Assembly (NCBI GenBank): GCA_028345195.1
Contig: JAOMCX010000003.1
Coordinates: 1 to 64,000, forward strand
Length of the DNA stretch: 64,000 nucleotides
Direction: 5' to 3'
Source: Candidatus Nitrosopelagicus sp.
GTDB lineage: Archaea > Thermoproteota > Nitrososphaeria > Nitrososphaerales > Nitrosopumilaceae
Shown here: piece after piece, positions 18,622 through 25,937 of the stretch
Layout: every line of letters starts with the position of its first letter
How positions within the stretch are numbered: the stretch's first letter is position 1
Position numbers and translations under genes: made by a program
Notes under the pieces: generated by a model
What the model was told of the DNA's origin: nothing
The model's input: the letters and a program-made list of their open reading frames with translations, nothing else
The model's database searches: none

Positions 18622-19627
18622 CGGGAATTTAACATTTGATGAAATGTCATCAGTGATGAGTGAAATACTAAATGGAAAAAATAGTGATGATGAGATTGCA
18701 GAATTTTTCAAAGATTTATCAAACAAAGGGGAAACGAATGAAGAACTACGTGCAATGTTTACAAAAATGAATGAATATTCAGTCAATATCAATCCACGTT
18801 GTCATGGAAACTTAATTGATGTATGTGGTACAGGTGGAGATAATTTACAGACATTCAATATTTCCACATCTGCAGCATTTGTTATTGCAGGAGCAGGAGG
18901 AAGTGTTGCAAAACATGGAAATCGTTCAGTTTCAGGCATATCAGGCAGTGCAGATATTTTTGAATATTTTGGATTTGATTTGAATTCAGAACCATGGGTT
19001 GTGGAAGAAATGATTGAGAAAATAGGAATAGGATTTATGTTTGCACCAAAATTTCATCCTGCAATGAAAAATGTTGCGACAGCGAGAAAAATAATTGGTA
19101 AAAGAACAGCGTTTAATCTTTTAGGTCCATTATGCAATCCAGCAAAAGTAAGACATCAGATGATAGGAGTTTTTGCAGATAATTATATTGAAAGAATTGC
19201 AAAGATTATGCAAAAGAATTTTTCAGATACAGTGTTAACAGTAAGATCTGATGATGGCATGGATGAACTGTCAACAACATCAAAAAATAAAGCATGTTTA
19301 TTAAAAAATGAAGAGATTACAGAGTTCATTATTGATCCAAGTAAATACGGTATGGAAAAAGGAAATATATCAGACATCCAAATTACAACAAAAAAAGAAG
19401 CCATAGATTCATTTGTAAAAGTATTGAATAATACATCAAATAAAACAATGAAAGAAATTACAATCTTAAATTCTGCAGGAGGACTTCTTGTAGGAGGAAT
19501 ATGCAACAAGTTTGAAGAAGGTGTAGAATTAGCTCGTCAAACAATAGATAACGGAAAAGCATTTGAAAAATTAAAACATTTTACAAAAGAAAATAACGCA
19601 TCCGATAAACTAGAGGAGTTTGAATGA
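18608..19627 (+). CDS. trpD: Anthranilate phosphoribosyltransferase
   Basis: 339 aa. It transfers phosphoribosyl from PRPP to anthranilate. Seen: DVCGTGGD, the Thr/Ser-rich FNISTSAAFVIAGAG, VAKHGNRSVSG, SGSADIFEYFG, and RSDDGMDELSTT, which binds the second Mg. Normal length. The start ATG overlaps the end of trpG by 14 bp, and the stop overlaps trpC by 8 bp. Confidence 0.95.
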   Translation: MKKINGNLTFDEMSSVMSEILNGKNSDDEIAEFFKDLSNKGETNEELRAMFTKMNEYSVNINPRCHGNLIDVCGTGGDNLQTFNISTSAAFVIAGAGGSVAKHGNRSVSGISGSADIFEYFGFDLNSEPWVVEEMIEKIGIGFMFAPKFHPAMKNVATARKIIGKRTAFNLLGPLCNPAKVRHQMIGVFADNYIERIAKIMQKNFSDTVLTVRSDDGMDELSTTSKNKACLLKNEEITEFIIDPSKYGMEKGNISDIQITTKKEAIDSFVKVLNNTSNKTMKEITILNSAGGLLVGGICNKFEEGVELARQTIDNGKAFEKLKHFTKENNASDKLEEFE

Positions 19628-20402
19628 TATGGAAAATATTTTAGAGAAACTTGTAAACAATTCAAGAAAAGCAATCGATAATGGAGTTTATAATATTTCA
19701 GAATCATTATCAAATTCAGGAATTGATTTAGGCGAAACAATAATTAATTCACAGCATGCGCCGGTGATTACAGAAATAAAGTTTTCATCACCCGCATTAG
19801 GCAATATTAGAAAAGTATCAGACCCCGTAGACATTGCAATGCAAATGGTTAATGGAGGAGCATCTGCATTATCAGTATTAACTCAACCATTTTTGTTTGA
19901 TGGATCACCTGAACTTTTTATGAAAGTTAGAAAAGTAGTTGAAATTCCAATGGTGATGAAAGACATAACAATCGATAAAATACAAATCGATGCTGCCAAA
20001 AAAATAGGTGCAGATTATTTTTTACTTATACAATCTCTTTTTGATAAGAAAATGGTATCAGAAATGGATGAACTAATTGAATATGGGCACAAAAATGGGG
20101 TAAAAGTGATTGTTGAGGCACATACTTTAGATGAATTTGAAAATGCTTGTAAAACTAATGCAGACATTGTTGGAATAAATAATCGTAATTTAGATACATT
20201 GAAAATTGATCTGAACACAACTAAAGACATACTAGAAAAATCAAATTCATCTAAAATCATCATCTCAGAGAGCGGAATTGAGTTAAAAGATGATATTCGA
20301 TTTCTTCATAAATGCGGTGCAAAAGGGTATCTAATAGGAACAGCAATAATGAAAAATAATAACATTGAACAAACGGTTAGAGGGCTAGTGAATTCAATAT
20401 GA
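19620..20402 (+). CDS. trpC: Indole-3-glycerol phosphate synthase
   Basis: 260 aa TIM barrel. Seen: [15 protein letters not shown] (the family has EiKr.SPs.G), [63 protein letters not shown] and GTAIMKNN. Only the indoleglycerol-phosphate synthase domain is present, and no TrpF half is fused. The start may be ATG 19620 or ATG 19629. It overlaps trpB by 4 bp. Confidence 0.94.
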
Positions 20403-21595
20403 AAATAGGAATACCAAAAGATGGAAGGTTTGGGGAATTTGGTGGAAAATACATTCCAGAAACGCTTGCACCTGCAATAGAAGAATTAGAAAAAAATTAT
20501 CTAAAAATTAGGAATGATAAAAATTTTAAAAAAGAACTTGGGAGATTATTAATTGACTATGCAGGAAGACCAACTCCAATCTATTTTGCAAGAAATCTTA
20601 CAAAAACAATAGGTGGAGCAAAAATCTATTTGAAAAGAGAAGATTTACTGCATGGAGGGGCTCATAAAATCAATAACACACTAGGACAAGCATTACTTGC
20701 TAAACGGATGGGTAAAAAAAGAATCATTGCTGAAACCGGCGCGGGTCAACATGGAGTGGCAACTGCGATGGCATGTGCCAGTTTAGGATTAAAAGCTGAA
20801 ATTTACATGGGATATGTGGACACATTACGTCAAAAACAAAATGTTTACAGAATGGAATTATTAGGCGCTAAAGTACATGCAGTAAAATCAGGTTCAAAGA
20901 CACTCAAAGATGCAATAAATGAAGCAATGAGAGATTGGATTACAAATGTTGAAACAACATATTATTTGTTGGGCTCTGCAGTAGGACCGCACCCATACCC
21001 TTTGATGGTAAGAGATTTTCAAGCAGTAATTGGAGTAGAAATTAAAAAACAAATGAAGAAAATTCCAAATGCAGTGATTGCATGTGTAGGTGGAGGGTCT
21101 AATGCAATAGGAACATTTTATCCGTTAATAGATACTAATGCCAGAATTATAGGAATAGAAGCAGGCGGAAAAGGAGTAAAAACAAAATTACATTCAGCCC
21201 CACTTTCGGCAGGTAAGAAAGGGGTCTTACATGGAATGATGACATATCTAATGCAAGACAAAGATGGACAGATTAGTGAAACACATAGTATTTCTGCAGG
21301 ACTAGATTATCCAGGAGTTGGACCAGAACATGCATATCTTAAAGATGAAAATCGAGTAGAATACAAAGCAGTAACTGATGATGAAGTAATTGATGCATTT
21401 TTAATTCTTACAAGAACTGAGGGAATTATCCCTGCATTAGAATCAGCCCATGCAATAGCACATGCAATTAAAATTTCAAAGAAAATGAAGAAAACAGAAT
21501 CAATTGTGGTTACCTTATCAGGTAGAGGCGACAAAGACATCGATATTGTAAAGGAGTATTTGGCCAAAAATGTCAAGAATAAAAGAAAAATTTAA
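20399..21595 (+). CDS. trpB: Tryptophan synthase beta subunit
   Basis: 398 aa TrpB1-type, PLP enzyme joining indole and serine. The PLP lysine sits in [18 protein letters not shown]. The catalytic glutamate region is [13 protein letters not shown] and the phosphate loop is [11 protein letters not shown]. The N-terminal [16 protein letters not shown] is the usual TrpB1 signature and predicts partnership with TrpA. It overlaps trpA by 26 bp. Confidence 0.96.
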
Positions 21596-22370
21596 TCAAT
21601 TAAAATTAAAAAAAGAGACTGCGTTAATCTCATACATTATGGCAGGATATCCATCAGAAAAAGCAACACTTGCAGCAGTAAGAGGATTGATTCAAGGAGG
21701 TTCAGATATCATTGAATTAGGTTTTCCATTTTCAGATCCAATTGCGGATGGGCCAACAATTCAGATGGCAAGTACAGAATCATTAAACAGTGGAACAAAA
21801 ATTGAGAATTTCTTTTCAATTGTAAAAAAAATACGTAAGGAATCAAACATCCCATTAGTATTGATGACATACACAAACATCTTGTATAACCAAACATATC
21901 TGAAATTTATTTCACGAGCAAAACAAGCAGGTATTGATGGATTGATTTTACCAGATATGGCAATAGAAGAATCAAAAGAATATGTCAAAGCTGCTAAAAA
22001 AATAGGAATGGATACAATATTTCTTGTATCGCCAAATACAGAAAAAGTTCGATTAAAACAAATTATCAAATCCACATCAGGATTTCTTTACATGGTCGCA
22101 GTTTTTGGAACAACAGGAGTTCAAACAAAAATTCACAAATATACACTAGATGCACTCAAAAATACAAAAATTGCTGCAAAAGGAAAAATTCCCGTAGGCA
22201 TAGGATTTGGAGTTTCTACAGAAAGAGATGTTCAAAAATACGTTTCATCAGGGGCAGATGCAGTGATAGTAGGGAGTGCGAACATAAAGATTATTGAAAA
22301 TACGCCTACAAATAAGGTCCAAACTCGAATTGCAACATTTACAAAAAAACTAAAAAACAGAACTAGATAA
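21570..22370 (+). CDS. trpA: Tryptophan synthase alpha subunit
   Basis: 266 aa TIM barrel that splits indole-3-glycerol phosphate. The catalytic Glu and Asp are in [18 protein letters not shown]; further signatures are [25 protein letters not shown] and [14 protein letters not shown]. It is the last gene of the operon. The start codon lies inside trpB, with an aaggag element about 15 bases upstream. Confidence 0.95.
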
Positions 22371-22410
22371 TGAAATAAACGAATAAAAACTAGAAGTGTT
22401 TAAGAAAAAA

Positions 22411-24012
22411 ATGCAGACAAAGTTTATTTTTGTTACAGGTGGAGTTATGTCTGGTTTAGGTAAAGGCGTAGTTTCATCATCAATTTGTAAATTATTACAA
22501 TTATCAGATCAAAAAGTGTCATGCATCAAAATTGATCCATACCTAAATTACGATGCAGGTACAATGAACCCAATTGCACATGGAGAGGTCTTTGTGACAG
22601 ATGATGGAGGAGAATGTGATATGGACATAGGGAATTATGAGAGATTTTTGAATCAAGATATACCAAAATCACATAACATTACAACTGCACAAATTTATTC
22701 AAGTGTTATAGAATCGGAACGAAAAGGAGAATATTTGGGAGCATGTGTTCAGATTATCCCACATGTTACAGACGCAATAAAGAATAGAATTAAAAAAATT
22801 GCTACAGACGAAGAATTAGAAATACTGGTAGTGGAATGTGGAGGAACAGTAGGAGATATAGAAAGTCTACCATTTTTAGAGGCATTAAGACAAATCAGAG
22901 TTGAGGAAGGATCAGAAAATGTTATTTTTGTTCATGTTACATTAGCACCATCATTAGATGTAGTAGGAGAACAAAAGACTAAACCTACTCAACATAGTGT
23001 ACAAGAGCTAAGAAGAATTGGAATTCAACCAGATTTACTTTGTGTGAGATGTTCCATGCCATTACAAGATAAAACAAGAAATAAGATTTCAATGTTTACA
23101 AATGTTACAAACAATGACGTATTTTCATGTCATGATGTTGATTCAATTTTTCAAGTACCTGAAATCCTATACGGGCAAGGTTTGGTAGATGTTATTTTTA
23201 AAAAATTTAACAAGATGGGATATGTCAATGCATCTCAGAACTGGGATACATGGAATAAGATAGTTAATTCATTACAAAATGAAGGGGAACCAATCAATAT
23301 TGCAATGGTAGGGAAATATGTAACACTTGCGGATAGTTATGTTAGTGTAAATCATGCGTTAAAACATGCAGCTGCATCACTTGGAAAAAAAATTGCAATA
23401 GATTGGATTGATTCAGAAAATATTAACGGTAATGTGGATACATTATCCAAATATGATGGAATTTTAGTTCCAGGAGGATTTGGGACTAGAGGCTCAGAAG
23501 GAATAATAAAAACTGCAAATTTTGCAAGAGAACAAAATATCCCGTATCTTGGAATATGTTTTGGATTTCAGCTGGCAGCAGTATCATTTGCAAGAAGTGT
23601 TTGTAATCATACAGATGCAAATTCAACAGAAATTGAACAAAATACCGACAATCCGATAATCGATTTACTTCCAGAACAAGATGGAATTACAGACATGGGG
23701 GGATCATTGAGATTAGGTGCAAATGATATTAATGTAAAACCAGATACAATGGCAAACAAAATTTATGGGCAAGATAAAATTTCAAAAAGACACAGACACA
23801 GATATGAATTTAATACAAAATATTTAGATGAATTTGCAAAAAAGGGTATGATTTTTTCAGGTGAAAGTGATGGAGGAAGAAGAATGGAGATTTTAGAGAT
23901 ACCATCTCATAAATTTTTTGTCGGGGTTCAATTCCACCCAGAATTTAATAGTAGACCCGGATATCCCGAACATGTATTCAAAGCATTCACTACTGCTGCA
24001 AATCAGAATTAA
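22411..24012 (+). CDS. pyrG: CTP synthase
   Basis: About 533 aa from ATG 22411; a GTG 15 bp upstream would add five residues. It converts UTP to CTP with glutamine. The synthase domain begins KFIFVTGGVMSGLGKGVVSS and has KIDPYLNYDAGTMNP and VECGGTVGDIESLPF. The C-terminal glutaminase has GICFGFQLAAV (Cys nucleophile, with F where L is common) and GVQFHPEFNSRP. The stop overlaps the convergent NAD kinase gene by 23 bp. Confidence 0.95.
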   Translation: MQTKFIFVTGGVMSGLGKGVVSSSICKLLQLSDQKVSCIKIDPYLNYDAGTMNPIAHGEVFVTDDGGECDMDIGNYERFLNQDIPKSHNITTAQIYSSVIESERKGEYLGACVQIIPHVTDAIKNRIKKIATDEELEILVVECGGTVGDIESLPFLEALRQIRVEEGSENVIFVHVTLAPSLDVVGEQKTKPTQHSVQELRRIGIQPDLLCVRCSMPLQDKTRNKISMFTNVTNNDVFSCHDVDSIFQVPEILYGQGLVDVIFKKFNKMGYVNASQNWDTWNKIVNSLQNEGEPINIAMVGKYVTLADSYVSVNHALKHAAASLGKKIAIDWIDSENINGNVDTLSKYDGILVPGGFGTRGSEGIIKTANFAREQNIPYLGICFGFQLAAVSFARSVCNHTDANSTEIEQNTDNPIIDLLPEQDGITDMGGSLRLGANDINVKPDTMANKIYGQDKISKRHRHRYEFNTKYLDEFAKKGMIFSGESDGGRRMEILEIPSHKFFVGVQFHPEFNSRPGYPEHVFKAFTTAANQN

Positions 24013-25009
24013 TCAATTTTGATATTTCATATATTTTCTGACGTGAATCTCTGATGGAAACTTTCTTTTTCACATATCCTTTCTCCAACAGATGGCTCAT
24101 AGCTAATCGTACAGTTCTATCAGGTAGTAATGTTTTTTTCACTAATTCTTTTTGACTCATTGAACCCTCATACTCTAAAATTTTAAGAAGTAATTTTGAA
24201 CTTGGTGGCATGTTAAATAATTCTTCAGCAAGTTTAACTTTTTTAGCAATGGCAGAGATAGCAGTCGTGTCTTTTTTTAGGCGAATAATATTTGCAGATG
24301 GTTCATAGTTTGTAGCCTCAACAGAGTTTTTTACTTTGTAACGATCCAACCCATCCAGAACAACTTCACAATGTAATCTTGATGAAATTTCATCAACTTC
24401 AATTACACTAGCATTAGATACAATCAATGGTCGTCTAGTAATATCAAGAGAATTTACAGAAATTATTCCAAATACATCAGAATCTTGAAAAATTACAGGA
24501 CCGCCTGCAGACATGGAATATGCAGAAGAACCAATTGGAGTTGAAATTATCACACCATCACTGCTATCATGCCATACTTCATCGCCGTTAACTCTCAAAG
24601 TATGCTCCATCAACATGGCACTTCGAGATGAAAAAACAGCAACATCATTTAGAACAGGATATACATTTTTTCCATCAATTTTTACACCTAATCGAGTTAC
24701 TTGTTCAGTCTCAAAATCCATTTTCTTGATACGTGAAATTAATGATGGAAGTTGTTTCAAATCAAGTTGTGAAAGGAATCCATCAGATTCAGATTCATTT
24801 ATTCCCAGAACAGGAATTGATGAATCAAATGTTCGATGGAAGTAATTTCTAACCCCCTTATCGCCTCCAAGAACAAATATGCAATCAGGTTTTCTATTCT
24901 TAGATTTTGTTCCAATTTTTGATGATGAGATATTATTTTCATCTAAAATTTTTTTTAGAAATTTTTCAGAAGAATCAGTTAATCCAGTTCCAAATATTCC
25001 AACATGCAT
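23990..25009 (-). CDS. NAD kinase fused to a C-terminal winged helix
   Basis: 339 aa. Residues 1-250 form an NAD kinase: FVLGGDKGV (family GGDG, here with K), ESDGFLSQL, LNDVAVFSS (the NE/ND substrate motif), STPIGSSAYSMSAGGP and SVNSLDITRRPL. Residues about 260-335 form a MarR-like winged helix (LLLKILEYEGSMSQKELVKK, LPDRTVRLAMSHLLEKGYVK). NAD kinases normally lack a DNA-binding domain, so this may be an NADP-sensing regulator, an active kinase, or both. Confidence 0.85.
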   Translation of the reverse strand: MHVGIFGTGLTDSSEKFLKKILDENNISSSKIGTKSKNRKPDCIFVLGGDKGVRNYFHRTFDSSIPVLGINESESDGFLSQLDLKQLPSLISRIKKMDFETEQVTRLGVKIDGKNVYPVLNDVAVFSSRSAMLMEHTLRVNGDEVWHDSSDGVIISTPIGSSAYSMSAGGPVIFQDSDVFGIISVNSLDITRRPLIVSNASVIEVDEISSRLHCEVVLDGLDRYKVKNSVEATNYEPSANIIRLKKDTTAISAIAKKVKLAEELFNMPPSSKLLLKILEYEGSMSQKELVKKTLLPDRTVRLAMSHLLEKGYVKKKVSIRDSRQKIYEISKLINSDLQQ

Positions 25010-25040: not shown

Positions 25041-25913
25041 TTAGATCTGCTTAAACTCCAGTATATTATAAAAATAAGAACCATTACTTTCTAATGCATT
25101 TTTTTCTGGAACTTTCTCAAGACCAAATGCCTTCGATTCTAAGGCTGATTGAGCAGCTCCTCCTGCAAAAGACAATGCCCATAGAAAGTCTTTTTCTTTT
25201 AACATAGTGCAAACAAATGTAGAACAAAAAATATCTCCAATTCCAGTAGTATCAGTCAAATTAATTTTTGGTAAGTAAATTGTATATAATTTATCTTTTA
25301 CAAGTAAAGATATTTCTTGTTTATTTGTATAAATTACATATTCAATTCCCAGTTTTTGTAATTGTTTAATTCCATCATTACCTGTAAGACCAGTCAATGC
25401 ATACAATTCATCAGGATTCATCTTAATAGCATTGATATTGTTAAGATCAAGTGAAGTTCTTTTTAGAGAAATTTCATTATCAGTATTTTTTTCTCTTAGA
25501 AAACCTTGAGGATCTAAAAATGAGAAATTATCAGAGTTTTTAATTTGGGAATAAGTTTCTAAAGAAATTTCATCAAATACAGGACTAATTATCACCCCAT
25601 CATCATTATTTTCTATAAAATTAATTTTGTCACACATATTTTCCACGAAAAGTTTTCTATCAGAACCATTTAGTTCAATTTTAAATCTAGTAGTAGATTG
25701 GGAAGATAATGCATCTGGAATATTGATTTTGTTTTCTTTGAAAAACTCCTCTAAAGGATAATTTGGACCAAATTTTGTGTATAGATTGACATCATGTTTT
25801 TGTTTTCGTGTAGTTAATGAGCAATAGCTAGCAGGGCCACCAGGAGCATCATATTGTTCATTTTCATAAATAATCGTATCCATCGTACAATGAGAAAATA
25901 TTCCAACTTTCAT
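25041..25913 (-). CDS. PfkB-family carbohydrate/nucleoside kinase
   Basis: About 290 aa from ATG 25913 (MKVGIFSHCTMD); a TTG 9 bp upstream is also open. PfkB signatures: N-terminal DAPGGPASYCSL (the family GG motif), AIKMNPDELYALTG, and the C-terminal catalytic DTTGIGDIFCSTF with the Asp base and anion hole. The substrate cannot be read from the sequence; ribokinase-like sugars or nucleosides are likely. The 31-bp gap to the NAD kinase on the same strand suggests one transcript. Confidence 0.85.
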   Translation of the reverse strand: MKVGIFSHCTMDTIIYENEQYDAPGGPASYCSLTTRKQKHDVNLYTKFGPNYPLEEFFKENKINIPDALSSQSTTRFKIELNGSDRKLFVENMCDKINFIENNDDGVIISPVFDEISLETYSQIKNSDNFSFLDPQGFLREKNTDNEISLKRTSLDLNNINAIKMNPDELYALTGLTGNDGIKQLQKLGIEYVIYTNKQEISLLVKDKLYTIYLPKINLTDTTGIGDIFCSTFVCTMLKEKDFLWALSFAGGAAQSALESKAFGLEKVPEKNALESNGSYFYNILEFKQI

Positions 25914-25937
25914 AATGAGCAAAAATTGTGGTTTGTA

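Follow-up and report, generated by a model that had tools for sequence, protein, structure and literature searches.

The gene at positions 23990-25009 (minus strand) of the window, by which we mean the whole stretch of 64,000 nucleotides analysed, raises the question of whether a protein that joins an NAD-kinase-like domain to a winged helix phosphorylates NAD, regulates transcription, or does both. The first-pass annotation had read the gene as such a fusion, with a MarR-like winged helix and an altered GGDG motif, and had allowed for a frameshift artefact joining two genes. The coding sequence is a single uninterrupted frame of 339 amino acids with an ATG start, and the fusion is borne out by this open reading frame, by Pfam domains, by relatives of the same type and by an AlphaFold model. 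The NAD-kinase-like ligand domain covers approximately residues 1-249 (24263-25009, minus strand), as delimited by PF01513/PF20143 and by matches to NAD kinases in the PDB. Within it, residues 34-95 match the N-terminal NAD_kinase model of Pfam (26.8 bits, cut-off 25.5) and residues 120-229 match NAD_kinase_C (68.4 bits, cut-off 23.7). The C-terminal winged helix occupies approximately residues 264-332 (PPSSKLLLKILEYEG...LPDRTVRLAM; 24014-24220, minus strand), of which residues 273-314 match HTH_24 at 22.0 bits (cut-off 21.9). The domain is thus a winged helix as annotated, but the MarR models stay below their cut-offs in the window protein (MarR_2 21.1 vs 27, MarR 18.4 vs 24.6). Among the 61 aligned fused copies, at E 0.01, NAD_kinase_C is matched by all 61 and MarR_2 by 57, and the RNA polymerase III subunit models RPC82 and RPC34 give weak matches to 19 and 7 copies, respectively.

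The AlphaFold model of the fusion protein (pLDDT 86.5, pTM 0.84) places three helices (269-281, 286-293 and 297-310) and two strands (313-317 and 325-329) in the winged helix. Residues 1-259 of the model match solved NAD kinases, the best being 7qvs, solved with NADP (Z 26.8, rmsd 2.5, 257 residues aligned); this comparison bears on residues 1-259, and the region beyond residue 263 is barely tested by it. By fold and by Pfam domains, the window protein is an NAD kinase by homology. This is what would be seen if it were an ordinary NAD kinase whose C-terminal domain is decorative or artefactual, a reading we consider highly improbable given that the winged helix is kept across the 61 copies, with S270, G282, R298, T299 and L307 invariant in all of them, and that the fused copies form a clade of their own. 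A tree calculated from 60 NAD-kinase domains has a single branch (100/99; present in 100% of the 200 bootstrap trees) that separates the 30 fused ones from the rest, namely 21 stand-alone NAD kinases and 9 other sequences. A frameshift or chimera of two genes was also considered, and is excluded by the full-length relatives found widely, in the family, class and phylum samples as well as among the 61 aligned members.

A fusion-type match (E <=1.1e-47, some matches being cut by contig ends) was found in 136 of the 151 genomes searched of the window's family; of the 15 genomes in which none was found, three are at least 90% complete (G009, G016 and G036). The fusion also occurs in other families of the window's order and class and, in the phylum sample, in f14, f17, f20, f21, f30, f33, f38 and f40 (f-numbers are family labels without formal names). 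Outside the phylum, among the matches listed, it is carried by a named Thorarchaeon and by a MAG labelled Thermoplasmatota. As it is present in the Thorarchaeon and throughout much of the window's phylum, the fusion may date back to the common ancestor of the two. G196, an order-mate of family f4 with a completeness of 100, gave no match for either nadA or the fusion. Short stand-alone winged-helix genes were also observed (G234, G268, G286 and G317 of f30, G331 of f49; L350, L351), whose similarity to the fusion profile is confined to its C-terminal part (E 1e-16 to 1e-23); genomes of f30 and f49 thus carry a DNA-binding half that is not joined to a kinase half.

One loop of the kinase half differs from that of its stand-alone counterparts. 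Residues 48-52 (24854-24868, minus strand) read GGDKG where GGDGT is usual, as the annotation had noticed, and the change at residue 51 is found family-wide, which excludes a motif loss restricted to the window's genome. None of the 61 fused copies has Gly at this position (R in 35, K in 20, S in 5, D in 1), whereas it is G in all 21 stand-alone NAD kinases, every one of which reads GGDGT. At residue 52, T is seen in one of the 61 fused copies and in 21/21 stand-alone kinases, and residue 49 is G in 30 of the 61. Much of the remaining site is shared: G48, D50, N121, D151, T157, S161 and D219 do not vary in either the fused or the stand-alone set. The NE/D motif and region II, whose residues have roles in NAD binding and in catalysis according to the available portion of PMC8553519, are present in the window protein and throughout the fused copies (N121, D/E122, D151, T157, G160 and S161 in all 61, Y164 in 60). 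Other residues are specific to the fused copies, namely D148 (61/61, 1/21 in stand-alone kinases), N186 (60, 1/21) and R223 (58, 6/21). The picture these alignments suggest is that of a nucleotide site that would be retained for binding, with its phosphate end changed. One idea is that Lys/Arg51 could serve as the contact for the 2'-phosphate of NADP(H).

With GGDK in place of the GGDG of active NAD kinases, catalysis has probably been lost in the fused protein, and, with D50 and the NE/D motif still in place, some residual kinase activity is conceivable. That D50, N121-D/E122 and the residues of region II persist in the 61 copies, with few or no exceptions, could also be read as the mark of a bifunctional enzyme-regulator like NadR, which would still make NADP, perhaps with a phosphate donor other than ATP, and regulate transcription as well; in phosphofructokinases, the residue after GGD differs between ATP- and PPi-using enzymes. 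We regard this reading as unlikely. The loop residues at 49, 51 and 52 are lost to the extent given above, and a Gly-to-Asp change at the equivalent place kills sphingosine and diacylglycerol kinases. GGDGT was found in 124 of 127 archaeal NAD kinases (PMC8553519, available portion). In addition, the search for a second, canonical NAD kinase that the annotation had proposed gave a clear answer, as the window's genome encodes one separately (G000 contig 27, 271 amino acids, LGGDGTTLR), which leaves the fused copy free for another role.

What this other role might be is indicated by the gene neighbourhoods, which were analysed for 59 of 60 loci (L064 was dropped at gene calling). In nine of the 59, belonging to f14, f17, f21 and f38, nadA is the immediate neighbour of the fused gene, divergent from it in eight and in line in one. 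The positions of nadA were also located with a NadA HMM; NadA, quinolinate phosphoribosyltransferase (QPRTase) and aspartate dehydrogenase were confirmed by Pfam in L091 and L104. In the Thorarchaeon (L135), where the motif reads GSDRS, nadA is likewise divergent from the fused gene. In f6/f7, no nadA match was found in the six genomes searched, all of which are incomplete, and the fused gene adjoins an MFS gene. For these neighbouring MFS proteins, the nearest NCBIfam model is one for aromatic acid/H+ symport, far under its cut-off. The fused gene is divergent from a branched-chain-type ABC operon in f40 (L087, L088) and from an APC-type permease in f30 (L094, L095), both of which are possible further NAD-precursor transporters.

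Within the window's order, nadA is found at a distance from the fused gene. Directly upstream of it, across a 31-bp gap, lies a gene for a PfkB-family kinase (25041-25922, minus strand; Pfam PfkB 38.9 bits, with TIGR02152 far under its cut-off), with which it perhaps forms one transcription unit; this PfkB cluster (cluster 4) recurs in the order's families f1 and f3. On the other side, genes resembling trpC, trpB, trpA and CTP synthase (19620-24012) converge on the fused gene, an arrangement that also recurs in the order. The PfkB kinase, CTP synthase and tryptophan genes were considered as functional partners and set aside, as their recurrence in the order yielded no functional link.

A palindrome, TGGCAAnnnTTGCCA, was noticed on reading the regions upstream of nadA. 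In the order's genomes, its core GGCAANNNTTGCC is found there exactly in 14 of 26 regions; allowing one mismatch raises the number to 24, and allowing two raises it to all 26. These counts use the core only, which was chosen after viewing the regions (L229, L235 and L245 are among the 26). When each stretch was resampled with a Markov model, the observed best was equalled in 0 to 7% of 400 resamples. As 23 of the same 26 regions served to build the matrix, its scores for them are circular; in three further family genomes, outside the matrix set, the core upstream of nadA has 0, 0 and 1 mismatch. The predicted site of the window's own genome lies upstream of nadA on another contig (L237:2501-2515), with one core mismatch. 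A scan of 20 genomes gave 39 exact copies of the core, distributed over 15 of the genomes, and 10 of these copies are just upstream of nadA. Of the remaining 29, 20 were retrieved; every one of these falls within an ORF, although five of the ORFs are shorter than 135 amino acids and may not be genes. Core-like matches are not in excess within the 64-kb window (23 vs 17.2 by chance), and, as regards autoregulation in the order, the matrix scan gave no strong site near the start of the fused gene.

Beyond the order, the palindrome accompanies the fusion in several lineages and is missing in others. In the Thorarchaeon, an exact core and a weaker site 29 bp away lie in the 138-bp gap between nadA and the fused gene. 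With at most one mismatch allowed, the core is present upstream of nadA in f17 (3/3), f14 (1/1), f33 (3/5) and f21 (2/7), and in none of the regions from the fusion-bearing families f38 (0/3) and f20 (0/1), so that 9 of the 20 nadA regions from fusion-bearing genomes of the phylum outside the order pass and 11 fail. One of the two passing sites in f21 sits within the preceding ORF, and two f21 genomes have a two-mismatch variant upstream of nadA instead. In f33, where three of the five nadA regions pass, nadA is located elsewhere than the fusion. In f6/f7, the site is found upstream of the adjacent MFS gene in 6/6 loci whose sequence covers this region (mismatches 0, 0, 1, 1, 1 and 2), a count made without L078, in which the MFS gene is cut by the contig end. 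Two sites approximately 30 bp apart precede the MFS gene in L077, L081 and L082, and in f7 the nearer of the paired sites abuts a likely TATA box (judged by eye), which favours repression. No strong site was found at two f7 loci without an MFS neighbour, nor at the fused genes beside the f40 ABC operon or the f30 permease, or at those of f9 and f20.

As a control, the stretch upstream of each of 26 nadA genes from 26 fusion-free genomes of the phylum was inspected; this stretch is not necessarily the first promoter of a longer operon. None of the 26 has the core with at most one mismatch, and one has it with two. Since the genomes are related and the counts are not independent events, no probability is attached to the association between palindrome and fusion. 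A different palindrome-like element, approximately CGAACATATGTTCG, was seen by eye at the start of nadA in four fusion-free genomes of f30 (L288-L291). In G331, an exact core, AGGCAAAATTTGCCT, lies directly after a stand-alone winged-helix match and before a cysS-like gene (L352:2555-2569).

These observations also bear on whether the palindrome belongs to the fused protein at all. The distance between the fusion and nadA in the window's order, the absence of the palindrome in several fusion-bearing families, and the weak resemblance of the winged helix to RNA polymerase III subunit domains would all suit a protein that regulates something else or uses its winged helix structurally, the nadA palindrome being that of another, co-inherited regulator. 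Such a scheme appears improbable to us when set against the single intergenic stretch holding both palindrome and fusion in f17 (3/3), f14 (1/1), locus L108 of f21 and the Thorarchaeon, against the shift of the palindrome to the neighbouring transporter in f6/f7, and against its absence at nadA in the 26 fusion-free genomes.

Taken together, the conserved architecture that was observed, the altered motif, the adjoining genes, and the palindrome with its association with the fusion are best explained if the fused gene encodes a transcription factor of archaeal NAD supply derived from an NAD kinase, to which we give a probability of about 0.7 on comparative sequence evidence. The fused protein would be a dimer, like NAD kinases, and its NAD-kinase part would bind NAD or NADP as a signal, probably without phosphorylating it, since the NAD(P)-binding residues are kept while the phosphate-donor loop is altered (GGD-K/R for GGDG-T). 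The bound ligand would alter how far apart the two C-terminal winged helices stand, and these would bind the palindrome, to which the protein is linked by association, before nadA, the gene for quinolinate synthase of de novo NAD synthesis. In lineages without a detected nadA, they may instead bind before the neighbouring MFS transporter, which would import an NAD precursor. Most probably, the winged helices would act as repressors at high levels of NAD(P). Of the NAD(P)-responsive repressor proposed in the first-pass annotation, an NAD(P)-linked transcription regulator is favoured by the comparative evidence, while the sign of regulation and the ligand (whether NAD or NADP, and in which redox state) are what we infer; and where the annotation had linked redox cofactor level to transcription in general, the target looks narrower, being NAD supply, by way of nadA in many genomes and of a transporter elsewhere.

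The enterobacterial, trifunctional NadR joins an N-terminal DNA-binding domain to adenylyltransferase and ribosylnicotinamide kinase domains and is not known to contain an NAD-kinase domain, and the ligand domain of NiaR also differs from that of the fusion. No adenylyltransferase, ribosylnicotinamide kinase or Nudix family is among the Pfam/NCBIfam matches of the window protein. The resemblance to NadR lies in a repressor joined to NAD-metabolic enzyme domains, a kinase included, with NAD as ligand (PMC6800001, available portion). NrtR resembles the fusion in combining an enzyme-derived ligand domain with a winged helix, and in having its gene beside and divergent from nadA/B/C with a site in the gap, according to the same portion of PMC6800001; it differs in that its ligand domain is Nudix-like rather than NAD-kinase-like, in being bacterial rather than archaeal, and in its operator. 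NiaR likewise governs genes of NAD synthesis and niacin uptake but responds to nicotinic acid (PMC5343564 and PMC7713382, available portions). To NAD kinases themselves (PF01513/PF20143; 7qvs, 1suw), the likeness extends to the fold over residues 1-259, D50, N121-D122 and region II, whereas the fusion lacks the GGDG(T) loop, has an extra C-terminal winged helix and forms a separate clade. The fusion would work like NrtR or NadR, as a regulator made from an NAD-metabolic enzyme, and belongs to neither, since its ligand domain is that of an NAD kinase.

Three kinds of NAD-biosynthesis regulators, NadR, NiaR and NrtR, are presented for bacteria in the available portion of PMC6800001, and the open-licence literature, to which the search was confined with subscription journals outside its scope, yielded no archaeal NAD-biosynthesis regulator and no fusion of NAD kinase and winged helix. 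We put forward, tentatively and at somewhat less than even odds, that the fused copies are a new archaeal family of NAD(P) sensors, in which an NAD kinase would have lost its donor loop, acquired a Lys or Arg in that place that may contact the 2'-phosphate, and turned into the ligand domain of a repressor that followed NAD supply from nadA to precursor import. The regulator reading is directly testable, as the predicted operator is 15 bp long. If it is true, this would be a third independent use of an NAD-metabolic enzyme as a sensor, and archaea would govern their NAD supply with a repurposed NAD kinase, ammonia-oxidising ones among them, as the window's order presumably is, judging from its named relatives Nitrosopumilus and Nitrososphaeraceae.
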